A stretch of 64,000 nucleotides of DNA from SAR116 cluster bacterium (GTDB lineage: Bacteria > Pseudomonadota > Alphaproteobacteria > Puniceispirillales > Puniceispirillaceae): the NCBI GenBank assembly GCA_004212735.1, contig SHBD01000002.1, forward strand, positions 1 to 64,000. The letters are read 5' to 3'. The translations under genes and the position numbers were made by a program. Below, in pieces: positions 31,439 to 60,237 of the stretch. The notes under the pieces were generated by a model. That model searched no databases. It was given only the letters and a program-made list of their open reading frames with translations, and was not told the DNA's origin. The first letter of the stretch is position 1, and the number at the start of each line of letters is the position of its first letter.

Positions 31439-31974
31439 TTTCTTTTGCCTTCATAAAGTGACCGTCGAGGTTGCCCGAATAGTCGGGGACCGGTTAGGCG
31501 GCGCCCGGGTGGTTGGAGGACAGCCCGTGCCGCCAGCATTCGCTCACCCCAATTTGTTGTGCGCCACTATAAGCCGTTAGCATATGCCGCGTCCAGACCA
31601 GAACAGGCCTCTTTGCCAATTCCGATCCCATCAACCCGAAAGACAGGGATGAGGGAGGTCTTTTTGCATGTTTCGCAAGCTCCTTGGAGGAAAGACTGCC
31701 ATGGGTAAAAAAATGAAATATCCTCAGTAACTTGGAAGCATCACACACAAATTATCACTGGTCTCCTGATGGCTTTGTTACATAAATATTATGGCAAAAA
31801 GACGTTTTTTTTGAGATTGCCTATTGTCCCCTCACCGCAACATCATGTAGTTTACTACTTGTGGAGCCGCTAGATGTGGTAAGTCCTCCACAGATACCTT
31901 ATAACCAACAGTAAACTAACAACAAACCACAAAACAACACTGTGGTGACAAAAAGAGATTCAGAGGACCAGACC
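31439..31974. promoter_or_regulatory. Spacer upstream of nrdJ with clustered inverted elements
   Basis: 536 nt lie between the NDUFA12 start and nrdJ. Near nrdJ there is a hairpin GTAG-TTTA-CTAC (31847-31858) and an inverted pair TGTGGAG (31860-31866) with CTCCACA (31886-31892). Further TGTGG or CCACA copies are at 31875-31879, 31927-31931 and 31941-31945: five in under 90 bp. The layout suggests an operator region for the ribonucleotide reductase gene. I see no NrdR-box match and no B12-riboswitch core. Confidence 0.45.
31668..31730 (+). CDS. Possible 20-residue small ORF or leader peptide
   Basis: ATG at 31668 opens a 20-codon frame ending TAA at 31730, with GGGAGG about 9 nt upstream. An in-frame internal ATG at 31701 (9 codons) has its own GGAGG 10 nt upstream. 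The product would be short and lysine-rich (MFRKLLGGK...KKMKYPQ). Two good ribosome sites in one small frame are more than expected by chance, but there is no homology evidence. It lies 245 nt upstream of nrdJ on the same strand. Confidence 0.3.
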   Translation: MFRKLLGGKTAMGKKMKYPQ

Positions 31975-34900
31975 ATGCGCTTTGAAAGACGGTTCACAAA
32001 AGCCGGACAAGATCCCTATGCGACCATCGATTTTCGTCTGGCAACAAGCGAAATCCGGAACCCGGATGGAACCGTTGTATTTCAAGCAGACAATGTCGAG
32101 GTGCCCGCACAATTCTCACAGGTCGCAACTGACATTCTGGCTCAGAAATATTTTCGCAAGGCTGGCGTTCCCCGCGTGTCAAGGCGCGTCGAGGAAACGT
32201 CTGTGCCGTCTTGGCTGTGGCGCTCGGTCCCGGATGAAAAGGCACTTGATGACCTGCCTGAAGACCAGCGTTTCGTGGGCGAAACTTCAGCCAAGCAGGT
32301 TTTTAACAGGCTGGCCGGCACCTGGACCTATTGGGGCTGGAAAGGCGGATACTTCACAAGCGAGGAGGACGCCCTCACCTATTATGATGAAATGTGTCAC
32401 ATGCTGGCGATGCAGATGGCAGCGCCCAACTCGCCGCAATGGTTCAACACCGGTATGCATTGGGCCTATGGCATCGACGGTCCCAGCCAGGGCCACCATT
32501 ATGTCGATTTCAAGACCGGCAAGCTGACCAAATCCAGCAGCGCTTATGAGCATCCCCAGCCGCATGCCTGTTTCATCCAGTCAGTGAGTGATGATCTGGT
32601 GAATGATGGCGGCATCATGGATTTGTGGGTGCGCGAGGCACGGCTGTTCAAATATGGATCTGGAACAGGGTCTAACTTCAGCCGTGTTCGCGGTGGCGGA
32701 GAGAGCCTGTCAGGTGGTGGCAAATCATCTGGTCTTATGAGTTTCCTGCGCATTGGTGACCGCGCCGCCGGTGCGATCAAGTCTGGTGGCACGACGCGGC
32801 GTGCGGCGAAAATGGTCACGGTCGATGTCGATCACCCCGACATTGAGGAATATGTTGATTGGAAGGTTGTCGAGGAGCAGAAAGTTGCGGCCCTCGTTGC
32901 CGGATCAAAACTGGCACAAAGGCACATGGGCGAAGTGATGGCGGCCTGTCAGATCACCGAGGGTCTGGATGGCGATGAGCGGTTTGATCCGCGCGCCAAT
33001 AAGGCACTCAAAAAGGCGATCCTCTCAGCCCGCAAATCAATGATCCCCGAAAATTACGTGCAGAGGGTCATCCAGTTTGCCCAGCAGGGCTACACCGAGA
33101 TCGAATTCAAGACCTATGACACTGATTGGGATTCAGAGGCGTATTTGACCGTTGCCGGACAGAACTCCAACAACTCAGTCCGAGTGAGCAACGAATTCCT
33201 GCAAGCCGTGCTGGATGAGGGCGATTGGGAATTGATCAAGCGCCGCGACAACGGCGTGGCCAAGCGGATCAAGGCTGCCGATTTGTGGGAAAAGATCGCC
33301 CACGCCGCCTGGGCCTGCGCTGATCCGGGACTGCAATATGACACCACAATCAATGAGTGGCACACCTGTCCTCAAGGGGGACGGATCAACGCATCCAACC
33401 CCTGCTCAGAATATATGTTCCTTGATGACACGGCGTGTAATCTTGCCTCGCTGAACCTGATGCAATTCCGCCATGATGACGGCTCGTTCGACATAGAGGC
33501 CTTCGAGCATTCCTGCCGGTTCTGGACATTGACGCTTGAGATTTCAGTGTTGATGGCACAATTCCCGTCAAAGGAAATTGCCCAGCGATCCTATGAATAT
33601 CGCACACTCGGACTTGGCTTTGCCAACATCGGCGGCCTGTTGATGGCGCAGGGTCATTCCTACGACAGCGACGAAGGCCGCGCCATCTGCGCCGCGATCA
33701 CCGCTGTGATGACTGGCGTTTCCTACGCCACCTCAGCCGAGATCGCCAGTGAGGTGGGTGCTTTTCCTCAGTATAAAAAGAACAAGAAGCACATGCTGCG
33801 AGTGATGAAGAATCACCGTTTGGCAGCGCATGGCGACGCCAGTGGCTACGAAGGGTTGAGCATCATGCCTGTGCCGCTTGATGCCGACTCCTGCCCGGAT
33901 ACGAATCTCGTCGAAGCGGCGCGCACCGCCTGGGACAAGGCCGTGACGTTGGGCGAGGCAAATGGCTATCGCAATGCGCAGGCCACTGTGATCGCCCCGA
34001 CCGGAACAATCGGTCTGGTAATGGATTGTGACACCACTGGGATCGAGCCAGATTTCGCCATTGTGAAATTCAAGAAACTGGCCGGCGGTGGCTATTTCAA
34101 GATCATCAATCGCGTGGTGCCCGAAGCATTGGCCAATATGGGCTACAGTCAGGAGCAGATTGATGACATCATCAAATATGCGGTTGGCAATGGCAGCCTG
34201 AAAAACTGTCAGGCGATTTCGGTCAACGCCCTCAAGGACAAGGGCTTCGGCGATGCCGAACTGGCCAAGCTCGAAGCCGCAATGGAAAGCGCCTTCGACG
34301 TGAAATTCGCTTTCAACCGATTCACGCTTGGCGATGATTTTTGCAAGGACAAGCTTGGTTTCACCGACGCCCAGCTTGATGATTTCAATTTCAACATGCT
34401 CCAGGCGCTTGGCTTCGACAAAGACGCCGTCGAGGCTGCCAACATCCATGTCTGTGGATCGATGACGCTTGAGGACGCACCGCATCTAAAGGATGAGCAT
34501 CTGCCAGTGTTTGACTGTGCGAATGCTTGTGGCCGGATTGGCAAGCGCTTCCTGTCGGTTGACAGCCACATCACCATGATGGCGGCGGCACAGCCATTCA
34601 TCTCTGGAGCGATCTCGAAGACAATCAACATGCCAAACAGCGCTACTGTCGCGGAATGCGGCAAAGCCTATATGTCGTCATGGAGACTGGGACTGAAAGC
34701 CAACGCGCTCTACCGCGACGGCTCAAAGCTCAGCCAGCCCCTGTCATCGGGCCTTGTCGAGGATATTGACGAGGACGAGGAAAGTTTGGATGCACTGAAC
34801 ACACCTGTTGCCGCAGCCGCACCACAGGTGATCGAAAAGGTTGTGGAACGCATTATCCGCGCGGAACGCGAGAGACTGCCACACCGCCGTAAGGGCTACA

Positions 34901-35625
34901 CGCAAAAGGCAACGGTTGGCGGCCACAAAGTCTATCTGCGGACTGGTGAATATGAGGATGGTCGTATTGGCGAAGTCTTCATCGACATGCACAAGGAAGG
35001 CGCGGCTTTCCGCTCGCTGATGAATAATTTTGCGATTGCCGTGTCGATTGGCCTGCAATATGGCGTACCGCTTGAGGAATTTGTCGAAGCCTATACATTC
35101 ACCCGGTTCGAACCACAGGGTATTGTGACCGGCAATGATGCAATCAAGATGTCGACATCCATCCTCGACTACACCTTCCGCGAATTGGCGATTTCCTATC
35201 TCGATCGCCATGACCTTGGCCATGTAAATCTGGATGATCTCGATGTGACAACGACCGGTCCTGGTGATAACCAGTCCGACCTCGTCAACAAAGTCACCAG
35301 TCGTGGTTTCATCCGCAAACAGGGGTTGGTTGTCTATTCGAATCAGGGCAATGCCGCAACCGCCATTTCCCAGGATAATGGGTTTGCAGCAACAACCGAG
35401 CCAGTGGCGTCACCGGCACCGGCGATAGCCAGTGGGGCATCCAGCGCCAGCCGTGCAGCCGTTGCCGGCACTGCCGCCAGTGACGAGACGGCAACCCGCG
35501 TTCAACAGGCCCGCATGCAGGGCTATGAAGGCGAAGCCTGTCCCGAATGTCAGAATTTCACCCTTGTCCGTAATGGTACCTGCCTGAAATGCAATACCTG
35601 TGGCGGCACAACAGGGTGTAGCTAA
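31975..35625 (+). CDS. nrdJ: Adenosylcobalamin-dependent ribonucleotide reductase
   Basis: This class II reductase makes deoxyribonucleotides with a B12-derived radical and needs no oxygen. The 1216 residues include the active-site motif NPCSEY with the catalytic cysteine near residue 477, the allosteric and substrate segments [14 protein letters not shown] and [20 protein letters not shown], and a zinc-like C terminus CPECQ...[14 protein letters not shown] that likely recycles the active-site thiols. The start ATG at 31975 has GAGGA 6-7 nt upstream; a GTG at 31942 is rejected. It is single-gene, closed by a strong terminator. Its presence implies cobalamin synthesis or uptake by this organism. 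Confidence 0.96.
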
Positions 35626-50343: not shown

Positions 50344-50647
50344 TTTAGCGGGCAATTTTTGGAGGTGGCAGGGCATGTTATCGGTTTCACTTTGGCCTCG
50401 GTTCTGGTAGATCATGCGGCACTGAGCGGTATCTGGGGCATTCGGACGCGGCGCAGTGTCGATTGCGCCAAATCCAAGGTCGTCAGGGGAACAGGAATTC
50501 GCGGCGTGTGGCCGCAGATTGGCACCCTTAGAAATTGACGGCTCTCACGACCGGCGACAGGCGATTTTTTTCATCTTTGTCACCGGGCATGGCGCAGAGC
50601 TGAACAACCGGCAAGACAGAAAAGCCGGGCAAAAGGGGATCTGGATC

Positions 50648-51946
50648 ATGGCATCACATCAGCCCGACCGTGGACAGCGCGGCCTGCCAGGCGGGAAGCC
50701 GAAATATTCCGCTTTTGCGATCGCCAAAAAGGCGATGAATTATCATCAGGACTGGCAACGCGCCTGGCGCGATGCGGCACCAAAAGATGAATATGATGTG
50801 GTGATCATCGGCGGCGGCGGCCATGGGCTTGCCACTGCCTATTATCTGGCTGCCGTGCATGGCATGGCAAACATCGCCGTCATCGAAAAAGGCTGGCTTG
50901 GCGGCGGCAATACAGGCCGCAACACGACAATCATCCGCTCGAACTATCTGTGGGACGAGTCAGCGGCGATCTATGAACATGCGCTTAAATTGTGGGAAGG
51001 CATGACTCAGGATCTGAATTACAATGTGATGTTCAGTCAGCGCGGTGTTTTGACAATCGCACATAGCGAGCATGAATTGCGTGAAATGTCGCGCCGCGTC
51101 CATGCGATCCGCCTGAATGGTATCGATTCAGAAATTTTGGGGCCCGCCGAAATCAAGAAATTCGTGCCAACGATCAATATCGACCAGTCGATCCGCTATC
51201 CGGTGATGGGCGGCTTTTTGCAGAAACGTGGCGGCACCGCGCGGCATGACGCCGTTGCCTGGGGCTATGCGCGGGCGGCTGATGATCTGGGCGTTGATAT
51301 CATCCAGAATTGTGAGGTGACAGCGCTGCGCCGTGAGCGCAGTAAAATCACCGGAATTGAAACCACCCGCGGCTTTATCAAAACGCCCCGGGTTGGCTGT
51401 GTTGTGGCGGGTCATTCGAGTGTGATTGCGGCGATGGCCGATATCCGCCTGCCCTTGGCCAGCCGGCCGCTGCAGGCACTTGTCTCAGAGCCGATCAAGC
51501 CGATCCTGGACACGGTGATCATGTCAAATGCGGTGCATATGTATATCAGCCAATCCGATAAGGGCGAGATGGTGCTTGGTGCCGGAGTCGATAAATATAA
51601 CTCCTACGCCCAGCGCGGCTCCTTTCCGGTGCCAGAGCATATGCTCGCGGCAGCGGTTGAGCTGTTTCCGGTGCTCTCGCGTCTGCGGATGCTGCGGCAT
51701 TGGGGCGGCATTGTTGATACCTGTCCCGATGCTTCGCCAATCATCTCGAAAACCGATGTCGAGGGCCTCTATTTCAATTGTGGCTGGGGAACGGGCGGTT
51801 TCAAGGCAACGCCCGGGTCAGGCCATGTTTTCGCTGATCTGATTGCCAATGACAGGCCAAATAAAATTGCCGCACCCTATGATCTCAATCGGTTCCGGAC
51901 GGGCCTTTTGATCGACGAGCATGGTGCCGCCGGTGTGGCGCATTAA
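50648..51946 (+). CDS. soxB: Sarcosine oxidase beta subunit
   Basis: SoxB is the FAD-containing catalytic subunit of heterotetrameric sarcosine oxidase, which oxidises sarcosine to glycine with transfer of the methyl group to tetrahydrofolate. From the ATG at 50648, with AAGGGG upstream, there are 432 residues. A Rossmann motif [18 protein letters not shown] sits at about 50-67, with [37 protein letters not shown] and [16 protein letters not shown] downstream. Longer frames to 50456 lack support. First gene of soxBDAG. Confidence 0.94.
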
Positions 51947-52011: not shown

Positions 52012-52452
52012 ATGCTGATTATCAATTGTCCACATTGTGGTCCGCGTGAGGAGAGCGAATTTGCCTGTGGCGGAGAAGCGCATATCGCACGCCCCCTTGC
52101 CGAAAACAGCATCAGCGACGCCGAGTTCGCCGACTACCTGTTTTTGCGCGACAACCCAAAGGGTCTGTTTCTTGAACGCTGGCGGCACAGTGCCGGCTGT
52201 CGGCGCTGGTTCAATATCGCGCGTGACACGGTGAGTCACGAGATCATCGAAGTGTATCCGATGGGCGCGCTGCCACGGAAGAAAGACGCGCTGGCAACGC
52301 ATGCGGCAAGCTGGCGGCGCGACACAGCGGCCGAAAAAGCAGCCGAGAGGGCAGCACAGAAAGCACAGAAACCGGCACAGAAACCGGCACAGAAACCGGC
52401 CCGACAGAAGGCAGCGGCAAAGAAAGCTCCTGGCAAGCGGGGAGGCAAATAA
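52012..52452 (+). CDS. soxD: Sarcosine oxidase delta subunit with repeat tail
   Basis: SoxD is the small zinc subunit of the tetramer. CPHCGPR at the N terminus and the later cysteine in HSAGCRRWFNIARDT are the expected zinc-binding residues. The core of about 95 residues is followed by a lysine/alanine/proline tail containing AQKPAQKPAQKPA, derived from 12-bp tandem repeats, making it longer than usual. Its stop overlaps the soxA start (52452). Confidence 0.93.
   Translation: MLIINCPHCGPREESEFACGGEAHIARPLAENSISDAEFADYLFLRDNPKGLFLERWRHSAGCRRWFNIARDTVSHEIIEVYPMGALPRKKDALATHAASWRRDTAAEKAAERAAQKAQKPAQKPAQKPARQKAAAKKAPGKRGGK
52369..52401. repeat. 12-bp tandem repeat in soxD
   Basis: Two full copies of AAACCGGCACAG and a partial third, preceded by a shortened AAAGCACAG unit. 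The period is in frame and encodes KPAQ units. Confidence 0.9.
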
Positions 52453-55400
52453 TGGGACTGATGAAAGCAAAACCAGCCGCCCAGCAGATGCGTCGGCGCA
52501 GCAGCGGCGGCCGCATCGACCGGACAAAGCCTGTTACATTCACCTTTGATGGACGAAGCTATCAGGGCTATGAGGGAGACACGCTGGCATCGGCCCTATT
52601 GGCCAACAATGTGCATCTTCTTGGCCGGTCATTCAAATATCACCGCCCGCGCGGCATTGTTGGCAGCGGTTCTGAAGAACCGAACGCGCTGATTCGGCTT
52701 GGCCGGGGTGCCTATGCCGAGCCCAATCTGCGCGCCACGCAGATTGAATTGTATGAGGGATTATATGCGGAAAGCCAGAACCGCACACCCTCTCTCAAAT
52801 TCGATATTGGCGCGGTAAATTCCCTGCTGGAGCGCTTCTTTCCGGCTGGTTTCTATTACAAGACCTTCATGTGGCCTGCCTCGATGTGGATGACCTATGA
52901 ACATGTCATCCGGCGCGCCGCCGGGCTTGGCAGGGTGGCTGACGACCATAACGACCCCGACCGATACGAAAAAGCGCATGTGCATTGTGACGTGCTGGTT
53001 GCCGGTGGCGGTGCTGCGGGCCTGATGGCGGCACTCCATGCCGGACGTAGCGGCGCACGGGTGATTCTGGCCGATGAGCAGAACGAGTTTGGCGGCTGGT
53101 TGCTGGCGGAAAATGACACCCGCATCGAGGGTGTGGATGCCAACAGCTGGATCGCAGGGATGGTGGCAGACCTTGCCGCGATGCCGGAGGTGACATTGCT
53201 GCCGCGCACCACCGTGTTTGGCTATATGGACCATAATTATCTGACGCTTGTGGAGCGCGTTACCGACCATCTGGCTGAGCGGCCAGCGCATCTGCCGCGC
53301 CAGCGTCTGTGGAAAGTGCGTGCCGGCCAGACAGTGCTGGCACAAGGGGCGCATGAACGGCCCCTGGTATTTTCCGGCAATGATTTGCCTGGTGTGATGC
53401 TGGCCGGCGCAGTGCGTCATTTCATCAACCGCTTTGGCGTTCTGCCCGGCAACCGCGCGATTGTTGTGACGAATAATGATGACGCCTATCGGACCGCGAT
53501 CAGCCTCAATGAGGCAGGCGCGAATGTCGTTGTGGCCGATCTGCGGATCGGCGCATCCGGTCCTTTGATCACCGCCGCCAAGGATGCGGGGATTGCCGTC
53601 ATGGCCGGACATGCGGTCACGCTTGCAGATGGCAACCACCGTGTGGCCCGTGTCGAGATATCCGCGGTCAATGAAGGAGCCACCCAGATCACCGGCGACA
53701 CGGTGCATATGGATTGCGACCTGATCGCCATGTCGGGCGGCCTGTCACCGGCGGTGCATCTGCATTCGCAGGCGCGCGGCAAACTTGCGTGGGACGACCG
53801 GACACTGTGTTTCAAACCATCGGCAACGCATGAAGCCTCGTTCAATGCCGGGGCCTGTAATGGCAGTTTCGATCTTGGTGCGGCACTGCGTGAAGGCGCG
53901 CGAGCCGGAGTGAAAGCAGCCACCGCCGCCGGATTCAAGGCGTTTACCAGCATCGAGACACCCGCGCTGGACACGCCAAAACAGAGCTGGCGGCCCCTCG
54001 CGGCGTGGAAAATCACCAATGGTGAGGAACCGGGCAGAGGACCGAAGGCATTTGTCGATTTTCAGAATGATGTGACAGCATCAGATGTTGCCCTCGCCGC
54101 ACGCGAGGGCTTTCAGTCAGTGGAGCATCTCAAACGCTATACCACCATGGGAATGGCGACCGATCAGGGCAAGACATCGAACATCAACGCGCTGGCCATT
54201 CTGGCTGATGCGCTTGGCAGCGAGATCCCCGAGGTTGGAACAACGACGTTCCGCATGCCCTACACGCCCGCCAATATCGGCGCGATTGCGGCGCGTGATA
54301 TTGGGCATTTGTTTGATCCCACTCGGCTGACCCGCATGGATGAGTGGCACCGCGCCAATGGCGCCACCTTTGAACATGTCGGCCAGTGGATGCGCGCCTG
54401 GTACTACCCCCAGGAGGGGGAGACCATGGCCGAGGCAGTCAACCGCGAGGTGCTGGCAGCGCGGACGACGGCGGGACTGCTGGACGCATCGACGCTTGGC
54501 AAGATCGATATTCGCGGCCCGGATGCGGCCGAGTTTCTCAACCGTATCTATACGAATAGCTGGCTGAGGCTCGGCATTGGCAAATGCCGCTATGGGCTTA
54601 TGCTGAAAGATGACGGTATGATCATGGATGATGGGGTGACGACCCGCCTCGCCGAGGATCATTTCCACATGACAACGACGACCGGCGGTGCCGCTGGGGT
54701 TCTCGACTGGATGGAGGAATGGCTGCAAACGGAATGGCCTGACCTGAAGGTATATCTGACCTCGGTGACCGAGGAATGGTCGGTTGCCACCCTGTCCGGG
54801 CCGAATGCCGCAAAAATTCTTGAGGCGGCAGGGATTGATATTGACCTTGGCGCCTCGTCCTTTCCCTTTATGTCGATGCAGGAAGCACATCTTGGCGGAT
54901 TGCCGGTACGGATTTTCCGGATTTCCTTCACTGGTGAGCTGTCCTACGAGATCAATGTCAAGGCGCGCCATGGGCTGGCACTCTGGACGCTGCTGATGAA
55001 AGCCGGTACCGATTTCGGCATTACGCCCTATGGCACCGAGGCGATGCATGTGCTGCGCGCCGAGAAAGGCTTCATCATCGTTGGTCAGGAAACCGATGGT
55101 TCGGTGACACCGCCGGATCTGAATATGAACTGGATCGTGTCTGATGTGAAAGCCGATTTCATTGGCAAGCGGGCGCTTGCCAGAGCCTCGATGAGCTATG
55201 ATGACCGCAAACAGCTTGTCGGCCTAATGACAACCGACAGCCAGCGGGTGATTCCCGAGGGCGCACATGCGGTGATTGACCCGGACCAGCCGATGCCAAT
55301 GGAGATGCTTGGCCAAGTGACCTCCTCCTACTATTCGCCAAATGTCGGCGCTTCGATCGCCATGGCGATGCTCAAGGGTGGCCACAGCATGTTGGGCTCA

Positions 55401-55496
55401 AAGGTCTATTTCCCGATGCTTGATGGCGATGTGATTGAAGCGGAAATTGTCGAGCCGATGTTCTTTGACGCGAAAGGAGAGCGGATCAATGGCTGA
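52452..55496 (+). CDS. soxA: Sarcosine oxidase alpha subunit
   Basis: SoxA, the large subunit (1014 residues), binds NAD and carries the folate-linked half-reaction. It has an N-terminal ferredoxin-like fold (VTFTFDGRSYQGYEGDTLASALLANN), a central nucleotide-binding region (VLVAGGGAAGLMAALHAGRSGA and GNRAIVVTNNDDAY), and a C-terminal GcvT-type tetrahydrofolate domain (ARTTAGLLDASTLGKIDIRGPDAAEFLNRI...GELSYEINV). It shares an 8-nt overlap (ATGGCTGA) with soxG. Confidence 0.96.
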   Translation: MGLMKAKPAAQQMRRRSSGGRIDRTKPVTFTFDGRSYQGYEGDTLASALLANNVHLLGRSFKYHRPRGIVGSGSEEPNALIRLGRGAYAEPNLRATQIELYEGLYAESQNRTPSLKFDIGAVNSLLERFFPAGFYYKTFMWPASMWMTYEHVIRRAAGLGRVADDHNDPDRYEKAHVHCDVLVAGGGAAGLMAALHAGRSGARVILADEQNEFGGWLLAENDTRIEGVDANSWIAGMVADLAAMPEVTLLPRTTVFGYMDHNYLTLVERVTDHLAERPAHLPRQRLWKVRAGQTVLAQGAHERPLVFSGNDLPGVMLAGAVRHFINRFGVLPGNRAIVVTNNDDAYRTAISLNEAGANVVVADLRIGASGPLITAAKDAGIAVMAGHAVTLADGNHRVARVEISAVNEGATQITGDTVHMDCDLIAMSGGLSPAVHLHSQARGKLAWDDRTLCFKPSATHEASFNAGACNGSFDLGAALREGARAGVKAATAAGFKAFTSIETPALDTPKQSWRPLAAWKITNGEEPGRGPKAFVDFQNDVTASDVALAAREGFQSVEHLKRYTTMGMATDQGKTSNINALAILADALGSEIPEVGTTTFRMPYTPANIGAIAARDIGHLFDPTRLTRMDEWHRANGATFEHVGQWMRAWYYPQEGETMAEAVNREVLAARTTAGLLDASTLGKIDIRGPDAAEFLNRIYTNSWLRLGIGKCRYGLMLKDDGMIMDDGVTTRLAEDHFHMTTTTGGAAGVLDWMEEWLQTEWPDLKVYLTSVTEEWSVATLSGPNAAKILEAAGIDIDLGASSFPFMSMQEAHLGGLPVRIFRISFTGELSYEINVKARHGLALWTLLMKAGTDFGITPYGTEAMHVLRAEKGFIIVGQETDGSVTPPDLNMNWIVSDVKADFIGKRALARASMSYDDRKQLVGLMTTDSQRVIPEGAHAVIDPDQPMPMEMLGQVTSSYYSPNVGASIAMAMLKGGHSMLGSKVYFPMLDGDVIEAEIVEPMFFDAKGERING

Positions 55497-56103
55497 TATC
55501 ATGACAGGTGATGCGATGCTTCCGGGCCGCAGCGCCCTTGCCGGGCGCGCCGGGATGAACGTAGCCGCCCCAGATGGCGGTAAGACCGGCCTGCGGGTGC
55601 AGGAGGTGGCACATATTGGCAAGATCAATATCCGTGGCACCAAATCCATCGCCAAGGTGATCTGGAACCATACCGGCTGTGATTTTCCGCCAGCCAACAA
55701 CATGGTCAGCTCTGCCGGAGCCCGGCACATTGTCTGGCTTGGCCCGGATGAGGCGCTGCTGCTGTGTGAAGCTGGCATGGAACGCGACCTGAGACGCAAG
55801 ATCAGCGCTGATCTTGCCGGCCAGCATTTCGCCGCAACAAATGTCACCGACGCGCTGTGTGTTCTAAAGGTTGAGGGTCCTGATGTGCGGGCGGTGCTTG
55901 CCAAGGGCTGTGCGCTTGATCTGCATCCAGGCAAATTTGGTCCCGGCCAGTGTGCGCAGACGGTGCTGGCACATGCCGGTGTGACGATAATCGCCACCGA
56001 TGAAAATTGCTTTTTGCTGATCTGCCGGACCAGTTTTGCCCCCTACACGCTCGACTGGTTGCAGGATGCGGCACTGGAATTCGGCTTTGTTTTTCAGGGA
56101 TAG
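55489..56103 (+). CDS. soxG: Sarcosine oxidase gamma subunit
   Basis: This 204-residue gamma subunit, a small GcvT-fold protein, completes the tetramer. Recognised by its position after soxA and by VAHIGKINIRGTKSIAKVIW, ARHIVWLGPDEALLLC, NVTDALCVLKVEGPDVRAVLAKGCALDLHP and RTSFAPYTLDWLQDA. ATG at 55489, inside the soxA stop overlap. Last gene before a convergent terminator. Confidence 0.93.
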   Translation: MADIMTGDAMLPGRSALAGRAGMNVAAPDGGKTGLRVQEVAHIGKINIRGTKSIAKVIWNHTGCDFPPANNMVSSAGARHIVWLGPDEALLLCEAGMERDLRRKISADLAGQHFAATNVTDALCVLKVEGPDVRAVLAKGCALDLHPGKFGPGQCAQTVLAHAGVTIIATDENCFLLICRTSFAPYTLDWLQDAALEFGFVFQG

Positions 56104-56128: not shown

Positions 56129-56158
56129 AAGTCCCGGCCGGATAACCGGGGCTTTTTT
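56129..56158. terminator. Bidirectional terminator between soxG and mttB
   Basis: A GC-rich stem (CCCGG / CCGGG) is flanked by A-rich sequence on the left (GAAAAAG) and TTTTTT on the right, so it can terminate both convergent transcripts. Confidence 0.85.
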
Positions 56159-56190: not shown

Positions 56191-56211
56191 GTAATCGGCT
56201 TAGTAATCGGC
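56191..56211. repeat. 12-bp microduplication at the mttB stop
   Basis: GTAATCGGC occurs at 56191-56199 and again at 56203-56211, so the last codons and stop of mttB are duplicated immediately downstream. Confidence 0.8.
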
Positions 56212-57753
56212 GTCTGGCAATTCCTCCATCCGGCGGGCAATGAAGGCACGCAAGGCCTCATCAATCGCCGGATCCAGCTCCGGCTCCTGATAGGCATCAA
56301 GCATTTCACCAACGCGGGTGCGAGCGCGCACATTGCTCTCAAGACAGCCTTCGGATGACCATTGTTCAAAAGTGTTGTTGTCGGCCAACTGCGAGCGCCA
56401 GAAAGCGGTCTCAAAATTCGCCTGGGTGTGCGAGGAGCCAAGAAAATGCTGGCCCGGGCCGGTCTCGCGGAGCGCATCCATCGCCTGGCCATTGTCCGAC
56501 AAATCAATGCCATCGACCAGATTTTGCATCATCGTCAATTGGTCAGCATCAAGCAGCAGCTTGGCATAGTCGGCGACAAGGCCGCCCTCCATCCAGCCAC
56601 CGGCATGCAGAACGAAATTAACACCGCCCATCACCGTTGGCAGAATGGTATGGGTGGATTCATAGGCAGCCTGCGCATCCGCAGTTTTGGCTCCGGTCAG
56701 CGACCCGCCAGACCGGAAGGGCACGCCAAGACGACGGGCCAGCTTGGCACAGCCATACAGCACCTTGGCAGGTTCCGGCGTGCCAAAAGTGGGGGCGCCC
56801 GTCTGCATCGACATCGAGCTGGCGAAACTGCCGAAAATCACCGGTGCGCCGGGATTGACGGCCTGGGTAAAGGCGATACCACTCATCGCTTCGGCAAGGG
56901 TCTGGGCAAGGGTACCAGCAACCGAGACCGGCGACATCGCCCCGGCCAGAATGAAGGGCGCGGTGATCACCGCCTGATTGTTCCGCGCATAGACCTTGAG
57001 CGCCCCCAACATGGTATCATCCCAGGTCATCGGCGAGTTGGCATTGATCAAGCTGACGCAGACCGTGTTATTGGCAACGAACTCATCGCCAAACAGAATT
57101 TTCGACATATCAACCGTGTCCTGCGCCCGGCTTGGGGCGGTGACCGACCCCATATAGGGTTTGTCGGACAGGCGCTGATGCGCATAGATCATTTCGAGAT
57201 GACGCTTTGTCACTGGCAGATCGACAGGCTCGCACACGGTGCCACCAGAATGATGGAATCCGGGGTGCATATAGACGAGTTTCACAAAATTGCGGAAATC
57301 ATCCATAGTGGCATAACGGCGCTCACCCTCAAGATCGCGAACGAATGGCGGACCATAGACAGGCGCAAACACCGTCTTGTTGCCGCCAATCTCTACAGAG
57401 CGGGCAGAATTGCGCGCATGTTGGGTGAAGCTGGCAGGTGCGGTGGCGCACAACTGACGCGCCAGGCCACGGGGAAAATGCACCCGCTCGCCTGTTACGT
57501 CACAACCAACATTGCGCAGGATATCGAGCGCCTCCGGATCATCGCGGAAATCAATGCCTATTTCCTCAAGAATCGTCTCGGCATTGGCCTCGATGATTTC
57601 CGTCGCCTCATCGCTCAGAATATCAACAGGCGGGATGTTGCGTGTGATGAATGGCGCGCTGGTGCCGTCACCACCGCCTGCCCGCAATTGACGCCGCGCA
57701 TCGCGCCCGCCACCACGACGCGAACGCCGCTCTGATATCTGAGGTTCAGACAT
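56200..57753 (-). CDS. MttB-family (trimethylamine/betaine methyltransferase superfamily) protein, non-pyrrolysine
   Basis: This 517-residue member of the MttB superfamily (COG5598) resembles enzymes that move a methyl group from a quaternary or tertiary amine to a corrinoid protein. The family pattern is clear: DEATEIIEANAETILEEIGIDF, VFAPVYGPPFVRDLEGERRYATMDDF, the SPMTWDDTML active region and CLESNVRARTRVGEMLDAY near the end. The frame is continuous with no internal amber codon, so it lacks the pyrrolysine of true MttB. The N terminus is Arg/Gly-rich. AGGAGAGGA precedes the ATG. It follows the DMGDH-like gene by 45 nt in one operon. Confidence 0.92.
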   Translation of the reverse strand: MSEPQISERRSRRGGGRDARRQLRAGGGDGTSAPFITRNIPPVDILSDEATEIIEANAETILEEIGIDFRDDPEALDILRNVGCDVTGERVHFPRGLARQLCATAPASFTQHARNSARSVEIGGNKTVFAPVYGPPFVRDLEGERRYATMDDFRNFVKLVYMHPGFHHSGGTVCEPVDLPVTKRHLEMIYAHQRLSDKPYMGSVTAPSRAQDTVDMSKILFGDEFVANNTVCVSLINANSPMTWDDTMLGALKVYARNNQAVITAPFILAGAMSPVSVAGTLAQTLAEAMSGIAFTQAVNPGAPVIFGSFASSMSMQTGAPTFGTPEPAKVLYGCAKLARRLGVPFRSGGSLTGAKTADAQAAYESTHTILPTVMGGVNFVLHAGGWMEGGLVADYAKLLLDADQLTMMQNLVDGIDLSDNGQAMDALRETGPGQHFLGSSHTQANFETAFWRSQLADNNTFEQWSSEGCLESNVRARTRVGEMLDAYQEPELDPAIDEALRAFIARRMEELPDADY

Positions 57754-57798
57754 TTGCTTTTTCCTCTCCTGCGAAGCTGTTATCTCTGGTCAACCGGC

Positions 57799-60237
57799 TC
57801 AGGCACGCAGTTTTTCATTGTCCTGGTCATAGGGGGACTCGCCGATGACCGTGGCCCGCAGCCGCTGGTCGAGGATGTCGATCATCAGCTCCGTACCAAC
57901 GCCAGCCAGATCCGGACGGACCATCGCAAGGGCAAGGGATTTATCCAGACGGAAGCCATAGCCACCACTTGTTGCGCGGCCAATCACCTCGCCATCTGGC
58001 AACATGATCGGGTTGCCGCCAATGGCATCGGCATCGGTGGTGTCATGCACCGCGAGCGTAACCATCGTGTTCTGGAAGCCTGCTTCCTGCCACTCGCTGA
58101 GTTTCTGGCGCCCCTTGAAGTCACCTTTGTTCAGATGAACAAACCTGTCAAGGCCACTCTCAAGCGCCGCATATTCAATCGACAATTCGGTACCGACGAG
58201 GCGGTAGGATTTCTCCAGGCGCATGGCATCCATAGCCCGAATGCCAAACGGCTTCAGACCAAATTCGGCACCGGCGCCCATCAGCGCATCAAAGATATGG
58301 TTCTGATACTCAATTGGGTGATGCAGTTCCCAACCAAGCTCGCCAACGAAATTCATCCGAAACGCCATGGCCGGCGCGAGATTCACCTCAATCAAACGGC
58401 TGGAAAGCCATGGAAAGGCCGCGTTGCTGAGATCGGCACGGGTGATTTTCTGCAGAATATCACGAGCCTTTGGACCGGCCAGAACCAGAACACCAACGGA
58501 ATTGGTAATATTGTCAAACCTGACCGAGCCGTCATTCGGCATATGTTTCTTGATCCAGTCGTGATCCAGTCGCTGCGACGCGCCAGCGGCAACAAGATAG
58601 AAACTGTCATCAGACTCCCGCTGAATGGTAAATTCGGAATGCACGCCGCCGCGTTCAGTCAACGCATGGCACAGCGCAACCCGGCCCACCTTGCGCGGCA
58701 GTTTGTTGGCAACAAGATGGTCGAGGAAAGCCTCGGCACCCGGGCCAGAAATGCGGCATTTGGAAAAGGCTGACATATCCAGCAACCCGGCATTTTCCTG
58801 AACATTGCGAACTTCATTGCCAACATGCTCAAACCAGTGTGACCGGCGGAAAGACCAATGGTCCTCCCGGGGTGTTCCCTCTGGGGCAAACCAATTGGCC
58901 CGCTCCCAGCCAAATTTCTGGCCAAACACGGCACCAAGGGCTTTCAGCCGGTCATAACAGGGGGCGGTGCGCAACGGTCGCGCGGCAGCCCGCTCCTCAT
59001 CCGGGTAATGGGTGGTAAAGACATTCGCATAGGCCTCTTCATTCTTTACCTTGAGATAGGATTGGGTCGTGTAGCTGCCATAACGGCGCGGGTCGACACC
59101 TAGCATGTCAATAGTTGGCTCACCCTCAACAATCCATTCAGCGAGCTGCCAGCCAGCACCGCCAGCGGCGGTGATGCCAAAGCTATGCCCCTCATTCAGC
59201 CAGAAATTCGGCACATCCCATGCCGGGCCGATGATTGGGTTGCCGTCAGGTGTGTAGGCAATGGCGCCATTATAAACTTTTTTGACGCCAACCTCGCCAA
59301 AGGCCGGCACACGTTCCATCGCCGACTCGATATGTGGCTCCAGACGCTCAAGGTCTTCCTGAAACAATTCATATTCAGAGTCATCGCTTGGCCCATCGAC
59401 ATAGCAGGCCGGCGCGCCCTTCTCATACGGGCCAAGAATCAGACCGCCAGCCTCCTCACGCATGTACCATTGGCCATCGGAGTCACGCAACACGCCCATC
59501 TCATGCTCACCGCGTGCATGGCGGTCTTTGATGTCGGGATGCGCCTCGGTGACGATATATTGATGCTCAACAGGGATCACCGGCACGTTCAGGCCGACCA
59601 TCTGGCCTGTCTTGCGGGCAAAGTTGCCGGTGCAGCTGACCACATGCTCACAGGTGATCTCGCCCTTGTCGGTTGTCACCTTCCACTCACCCTCAAGGGT
59701 GCGGCTGATCGCGGTCACGGTGGTATTGCGATAGATTTCGGCGCCCCGGTCACGCGCACCGCGTGCCAGCGCCTGAGTGAGATCGGCAGGCTGGATGTAA
59801 CCGTCATCCGGGTGCCGGATCGCCCCAATCAAGCCATCTGTATTGCACATCGGCCAGTAATCCTTGACCTCGTCAGGGCTCAGGAGCTGCACGTCGACGC
59901 CAATGGTGCTGGCAACACCGGCATATTGGCGATATTCGTCCATGCGGTCAGGCTTTGAGGCAAGACGGATGTTCGAGACATTGCGGAAACCGACATCCAT
60001 ACCGGTCTCTTCCTGCAATTCCTGATAGAATTTGACCGAATATTTATGCACTTGGCCAACTGAATAGGACATGTTGAACAGCGGCAGCAGGCCGGCAGCA
60101 TGCCAGGTCGAGCCCGAAGTAAGCTCCTTGCGCTCAAGAAGAACGACATCAGACCAGCCTTTTTTTGCCAGATGGTAAAGGGTGCTGACACCAACAACAC
60201 CACCCCCAACAACAACAACGCGCGCATGCGTTTTCAT
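57799..60237 (-). CDS. Dimethylglycine/sarcosine dehydrogenase-like flavoprotein
   Basis: This 812-residue enzyme of the DMGDH/SARDH family oxidatively removes an N-methyl group from dimethylglycine or sarcosine. An N-terminal FAD motif VVVVGGGVVGVSTLYHLAKKG is followed by SGSTWHAAGLLPL, whose histidine carries the covalent FAD in homologues. The C-terminal half is a GcvT-type folate-binding domain (AGLLDMSAFSKCRISGPGAEAF...VGELGWELHHP). GGGAG lies upstream of the ATG. First gene of an operon with the MttB homologue. The substrate is set by analogy; another N-methyl amino acid is possible. Confidence 0.9.
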   Translation of the reverse strand: MKTHARVVVVGGGVVGVSTLYHLAKKGWSDVVLLERKELTSGSTWHAAGLLPLFNMSYSVGQVHKYSVKFYQELQEETGMDVGFRNVSNIRLASKPDRMDEYRQYAGVASTIGVDVQLLSPDEVKDYWPMCNTDGLIGAIRHPDDGYIQPADLTQALARGARDRGAEIYRNTTVTAISRTLEGEWKVTTDKGEITCEHVVSCTGNFARKTGQMVGLNVPVIPVEHQYIVTEAHPDIKDRHARGEHEMGVLRDSDGQWYMREEAGGLILGPYEKGAPACYVDGPSDDSEYELFQEDLERLEPHIESAMERVPAFGEVGVKKVYNGAIAYTPDGNPIIGPAWDVPNFWLNEGHSFGITAAGGAGWQLAEWIVEGEPTIDMLGVDPRRYGSYTTQSYLKVKNEEAYANVFTTHYPDEERAAARPLRTAPCYDRLKALGAVFGQKFGWERANWFAPEGTPREDHWSFRRSHWFEHVGNEVRNVQENAGLLDMSAFSKCRISGPGAEAFLDHLVANKLPRKVGRVALCHALTERGGVHSEFTIQRESDDSFYLVAAGASQRLDHDWIKKHMPNDGSVRFDNITNSVGVLVLAGPKARDILQKITRADLSNAAFPWLSSRLIEVNLAPAMAFRMNFVGELGWELHHPIEYQNHIFDALMGAGAEFGLKPFGIRAMDAMRLEKSYRLVGTELSIEYAALESGLDRFVHLNKGDFKGRQKLSEWQEAGFQNTMVTLAVHDTTDADAIGGNPIMLPDGEVIGRATSGGYGFRLDKSLALAMVRPDLAGVGTELMIDILDQRLRATVIGESPYDQDNEKLRA

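Follow-up and report, generated by a model that had tools for sequence, protein, structure and literature searches.

An MttB-family methyltransferase gene in a SAR116 bacterium as the very probable substrate end of a cobalamin-dependent glycine betaine methyltransferase system

Results

Gene content of the locus

The window, the whole stretch of DNA analyzed here, comprises bases 1-64000 of contig C12 in a 2.49-Mb genome that is 96% complete. The host is a SAR116-clade alphaproteobacterium, and the named relatives at 94-95% MttB identity are SAR116 single-cell genomes. The subject is a gene pair encoding an MttB-family methyltransferase (MttB) and a flavoprotein that resembles dimethylglycine dehydrogenase (DMGDH), together with the sarcosine oxidase genes that face it.

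56200..57753, minus strand: mtgB-like gene, MttB-family (PF06253) non-pyrrolysine methyltransferase, 517 aa (open reading frame, profile match and alignment)
57799..60237, minus strand: DMGDH-like gene, flavoprotein with DAO, FAO_M, GCV_T and GCV_T_C domains, 812 aa (open reading frame, profile match and structure relatives)
50456..51946, plus strand: soxB, sarcosine oxidase beta subunit; start codon uncertain, longest frame given (open reading frame and profile match)
52012..52452, plus strand: soxD, sarcosine oxidase delta subunit (open reading frame and profile match)
52452..55496, plus strand: soxA, sarcosine oxidase alpha subunit (open reading frame and profile match)
55435..56103, plus strand: soxG, sarcosine oxidase gamma subunit; start codon uncertain (open reading frame and profile match)
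56133..56150, minus strand: terminator-like hairpin between the convergent mtgB and soxG (consensus match only)

The DMGDH-like gene comes first on the minus strand and is followed after 45 bp by MttB; both genes are intact. From the other side, soxB, soxD, soxA and soxG run toward MttB on the plus strand, in convergent orientation. A sequence-only reading of this DNA had described a non-pyrrolysine MttB paired with a DMGDH-like gene opposite soxBDAG, and the open reading frames, domains and strands confirm that description. The same reading took a B12-dependent NrdJ as a sign that the cell uses cobalamin. NrdJ, at 31942-35625, does exceed the TIGR02504 cut-off, in a search that discriminates only moderately (7 of 14 control genomes also exceed it). 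A scan found 8 sites like the hairpin in 4.8 kb, against 4.2 expected, and only the position of the one at 56150-56133, beyond the MttB stop codon, suggests a terminator.

The methyltransferase and the flavoprotein

MttB matches PF06253 over positions 1-500 of 500, with 762.8 bits. It has no in-frame UAG, because there is no internal stop in its frame. The closest solved structure is 4yyc (744.8 bits, 63% identity), a putative trimethylamine methyltransferase presumably from Sinorhizobium meliloti, for which we know of no tested function. Identity to MtgB of Desulfitobacterium hafniense is 42%. Docking predicts that residues Y94, N199, R309 and H345 of that enzyme hold betaine (PMC6855144). 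In our alignment all four are kept in the window MttB, alone among the five paralogues of the genome; MttB_11 and MttB_12 each keep three of the four, MttB_13 one and MttB_10 none.

Residues 2-800 of the 812 in the DMGDH-like protein align to the mammalian dimethylglycine dehydrogenases (4p9s, 5l46), its best solved relatives, with 648 bits, and its domain order is that of the solved DMGDH. The match to a dimethylglycine oxidase structure, which we take to be of the Arthrobacter type, reaches 346 bits. Because of the DMGDH likeness of the flavoprotein and the four kept docking residues, glycine betaine is the probable, though unproven, donor for the window MttB.

The corrinoid protein and its gene run

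The sequence-only reading found neither a corrinoid protein nor a second methyltransferase beside MttB. This holds for the 64-kb window, in which PF02607, PF02310 and PF00809 have no match, but not for the genome. A whole-genome profile search matched PF02607 at one place only (C12:86426-86644). PF02310 matches twice, once at the same place and once on contig C1, where the 744-aa frame is probably methylmalonyl-CoA mutase. The shared place belongs to the following gene.

L009:9992-10696 (about C12:85991-86695), minus strand: MtgC, free-standing corrinoid protein (PF02607 and PF02310), 234 aa (profile match)

MtgC lies on the same contig as MttB, 28 kb away. It is followed on the same strand by genes for a DUF1638 protein (PF07796, 226 aa), a MetF-like protein (PF02219, MTHFR; 315 aa), the pterin-binding protein MtgD (PF00809, 341 aa) and a RACo-domain protein (683 aa). 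This run of mtgC, DUF1638, metF-like, mtgD and ramA-type genes sits 23-28 kb from MttB. A second and stronger PF00809 match (238 bits, on C65) is probably dihydropteroate synthase. The solved relatives of MtgC are corrinoid proteins, among them that of the trimethylamine system; those of MtgD include methyltetrahydrofolate:corrinoid methyltransferases and MetH, and none of the 17 PDB sequences that it matches is named MtgA. The activase is related to 3zyy, an iron-sulfur RACo-type protein, and the MetF-like protein to methylenetetrahydrofolate reductases. A literature search on MetF and Sphingobium found no paper on the enzyme itself.

Co-occurrence of MttB and MtgC

Two samples were used, 95 alphaproteobacterial genomes of at least 95% completeness drawn across the class and 136 genomes of the order. 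In the class sample 20 genomes have an MttB match and 75 have none. MtgC at 74% identity or more, a limit set after the gap was viewed (the next match is at 52%), is present in 19 of the 20 MttB-positive genomes and in none of the 75 others (Fisher p 4e-19, genomes treated as independent). The one MttB-positive genome without it, G190, shows no MtgC match at all, and an in-frame gap of about 77 residues in its MttB (L105:1100-2386) reflects a deletion, a pseudogene or an assembly fault.

MttB is present in 77 of the 136 order genomes, and MtgC in 66 of those 77. The 11 MttB-positive genomes without MtgC compare with 11.5 expected from incompleteness alone, and all 38 MttB-positive genomes of at least 90% completeness have MtgC. 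One family of the order has neither gene, and the order-level co-occurrence is therefore confounded by descent. In the 59 order genomes with both rows typed, MttB and MtgC share a contig in 27; their spacing is 26.4-32.0 kb in 26 of these and 48.8 kb in one.

The sequence-only reading had offered two possibilities, that the corrinoid partner is encoded elsewhere or that MttB uses a different acceptor, and had proposed a genome search for MtgC- or MttC-like proteins and RamA activases. That search found proteins of both types, with the RACo/RamA-type protein beside MtgC, and the gene content supports the first possibility. The presence of MtgC in the genome and the co-occurrence of 19/20 versus 0/75 lead us to reject both an orphan MttB and a new acceptor. 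MttB is not orphaned, its MtgC, MtgD and activase run lying on the same contig, and it needs no new acceptor. A corrinoid operon elsewhere dedicated to MttB, which would have told against the orphan, is nearly what was found; the run is probably not dedicated, as one MtgC stands for five MttB paralogues.

Neighborhoods of MttB relatives

The named loci are the best 80 of 225. Among these the DMGDH gene lies directly upstream of MttB in 47, with a gap of 33-296 bp, and soxG is convergent with MttB in 49. The SAR116-like locus L045 begins at MttB. In L063 and L064 a RamA-MtgD-DUF1638-MtgC run adjoins MttB in place of DMGDH. The actinobacterial loci among the 80 (L067-L071, L073-L093) are marine, come from Acidimicrobiales and relatives, and have MttB at 59-66% identity. 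RamA is directly upstream of MttB in all 26 of them. MtgC, DUF1638 and MtgD can be seen in 22, and the remaining four loci stop short of them. Actinomycetota account for 5% of mtgC reads (PMC12478193), and a literature search on Acidimicrobiia with corrinoid and betaine found nothing related.

The other MttB paralogues

The genome has five PF06253 genes and one MtgC. A second cluster (L010:3811-12771, C12 at about 180-189 kb) encodes a cupin-HTH regulator, two DMGDH-like flavoproteins, a divergent MttB with 24% identity to that of the window, and a sulfatase that scores below the choline-sulfatase cut-off. It is possible, if rather doubtful, that the five MttB proteins differ in specificity and all feed a single MtgC hub, and that the L010 pair demethylates in series another methylated amine, one so far assigned to no MttB. 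Another paralogue (L011:6648-9148, C12 at about 231-233 kb) lies beside a dimethylargininase-like protein (192.5 of 450 bits).

Methionine synthesis

Classical MetH was not found, MtgC being the sole PF02607 match in the genome. A search with the NCBIfam methionine synthase models and PF01717 found no full-length MetE in the genome either. A core-MetE-like protein of 402 aa falls short of all the NCBIfam methionine synthase cut-offs shown (its best score is 101.7 of 406), and its PF01717 pieces score 29.8 and 21.7 bits, where the cut-off is 21. Three PF02574 proteins are present. One is MtgE-like, is encoded away from the MtgC run, and exceeds the cut-off of the NCBIfam betaine-homocysteine methyltransferase model NF005718 (460.6 versus 338).

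Discussion

Proposed pathway

The locus very probably supplies the substrate end of an MtgBCD(E) system, an aerobic glycine betaine methyltransferase that depends on cobalamin. The genes, their domains, order and linkage, and the co-occurrence are observed; homology and the genetics of Ruegeria pomeroyi are the basis on which we predict the reactions and their substrate, the direction of the pathway, and a shared MtgC. Acting as MtgB, MttB would convert glycine betaine to dimethylglycine, the one methyl group removed passing to the Co(I) corrinoid of MtgC. MtgD would pass the methyl group from MtgC to tetrahydrofolate, and the MetF-like enzyme would oxidize the resulting methyl-tetrahydrofolate to methylene-tetrahydrofolate. 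Whenever the corrinoid slips to Co(II), the RACo/RamA-type protein, possibly together with DUF1638, would reduce it again. The DMGDH-like enzyme and SoxBDAG would convert dimethylglycine to sarcosine and then to glycine, feeding methylene-tetrahydrofolate as well. The five MttB paralogues probably have the single MtgC in common, and methionine synthesis probably draws on it too, with the MtgE-like subunit. An aerobic N-demethylation cascade from betaine through dimethylglycine and sarcosine to glycine, as proposed from the sequence alone, is well supported by the gene content, which also supports cobalamin use by the cell. The three steps would stand side by side in SAR116, with shared corrinoid machinery nearby.

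Several observations weigh against this interpretation. MtgC and the window MttB are 28 kb apart and not in one operon. With the two NCBIfam MtgC models, which were built for other MtgC, this MtgC stays under the cut-off (206.3 of 370, 179.1 of 310); the aerobic MtgC is phylogenetically distinct from that of anaerobes (PMC12478193). The activase is below the AcsV (386.5 of 800) and RamA (121.4 of 500) cut-offs. MttB itself reaches only 259.6 of 525 bits with TIGR02369, the pyrrolysine trimethylamine methyltransferase model; for this score and the lack of an in-frame UAG, an identity as trimethylamine methyltransferase was rejected. The betaine-contact residues are themselves docking predictions, and a fifth, F353, is G in the window MttB, as it is in the aligned alphaproteobacterial and actinobacterial relatives. 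Six other alphaproteobacterial loci (L061-L066, 62-66% identity) have no adjacent DMGDH. If any MtgC match is counted, 68 of the 95 class-sample genomes are positive, mostly through long frames of MetH size, and to this are added the identity limit chosen after viewing and the confounding by descent described above.

Alternative explanations

The same MttB-MtgC-MtgD machinery could act on another quaternary amine, such as proline betaine, carnitine or a related betaine, with the DMGDH-like enzyme acting on the matching tertiary amine. The substrate cannot be read from the sequence with certainty, the MttB-family members of known function vary in substrate (PMC12478193), F353 is not kept, and the genome has several DMGDH-like paralogues. 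Against this, the flavoprotein is nearest to true DMGDH, soxBDAG lies directly opposite in an arrangement kept in 49 of the 80 named loci, and four docking residues are kept, so that another donor appears improbable.

Two further explanations are considered very unlikely. MttB might methylate another acceptor, tetrahydrofolate or homocysteine directly, without a corrinoid protein; the window has no corrinoid gene and the operon partner carries a folate domain. This is countered by the MtgC of the genome, by its co-occurrence with MttB, and by the actinobacterial loci, in which the orthologue adjoins RamA and the MtgC run. Betaine might instead be demethylated by a Bhmt-type or GbcA-type enzyme, leaving MttB redundant or minor. 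The protein above the betaine-homocysteine methyltransferase cut-off and four Rieske (PF00848) proteins would be the candidates. The Bhmt type is named MtgE in PMC12478193, where the Discussion argues that it lacks betaine-binding residues. The GbcA route was rejected because no Rieske protein reaches the NF058607 cut-off of 670 bits (best 148.3).

Comparison with known systems

The MtgB/MtgC/MtgA system of the anaerobe D. hafniense likewise combines an MttB-family betaine methyltransferase, a corrinoid protein and a tetrahydrofolate methyltransferase. It differs in that its MtgB is only 42% identical to the window MttB and that no PDB match of MtgD bears the name MtgA. The pyrrolysine MttB shares the PF06253 family, whereas the protein described here has no in-frame UAG and is below the TIGR02369 cut-off. 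Mammalian DMGDH has the same domain order as the flavoprotein and aligns over nearly its full length; here the enzyme is bacterial and in an operon with MttB.

The closest likeness, by gene set and published description, is to the aerobic MtgBCD(E) system and split methionine synthase of R. pomeroyi and Phaeobacter inhibens (PMC12478193). Common to both are a PF06253 MtgB, a free-standing MtgC, a pterin-binding MtgD, a MetF-like enzyme, a RamA-type activase, DUF1638, an MtgE-like subunit, several MttB paralogues, the lack of MetH, and later demethylation genes nearby. In R. pomeroyi, a knockout of mtgC or mtgD abolishes growth on betaine and makes the cells dependent on methionine, and betaine raises the levels of two PF06253 proteins, of a MetF paralogue, of RamA and of DUF1638 (PMC12478193). 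The same report describes up to seven PF06253 genes alongside one system, later demethylation genes often near mtgBCD in marine proteobacteria, and mtgC in SAR116. The difference lies in the layout: here mtgB is paired with a dmgdh-like gene facing soxBDAG, and the single run of mtgC, DUF1638, metF, mtgD and ramA lies apart from them, at 23-28 kb. The pathway is already known, having been published in 2025, and this locus is an ordinary example of it. The SAR116 layout agrees with that report of cobalamin-based betaine demethylation in aerobic marine bacteria (PMC12478193).

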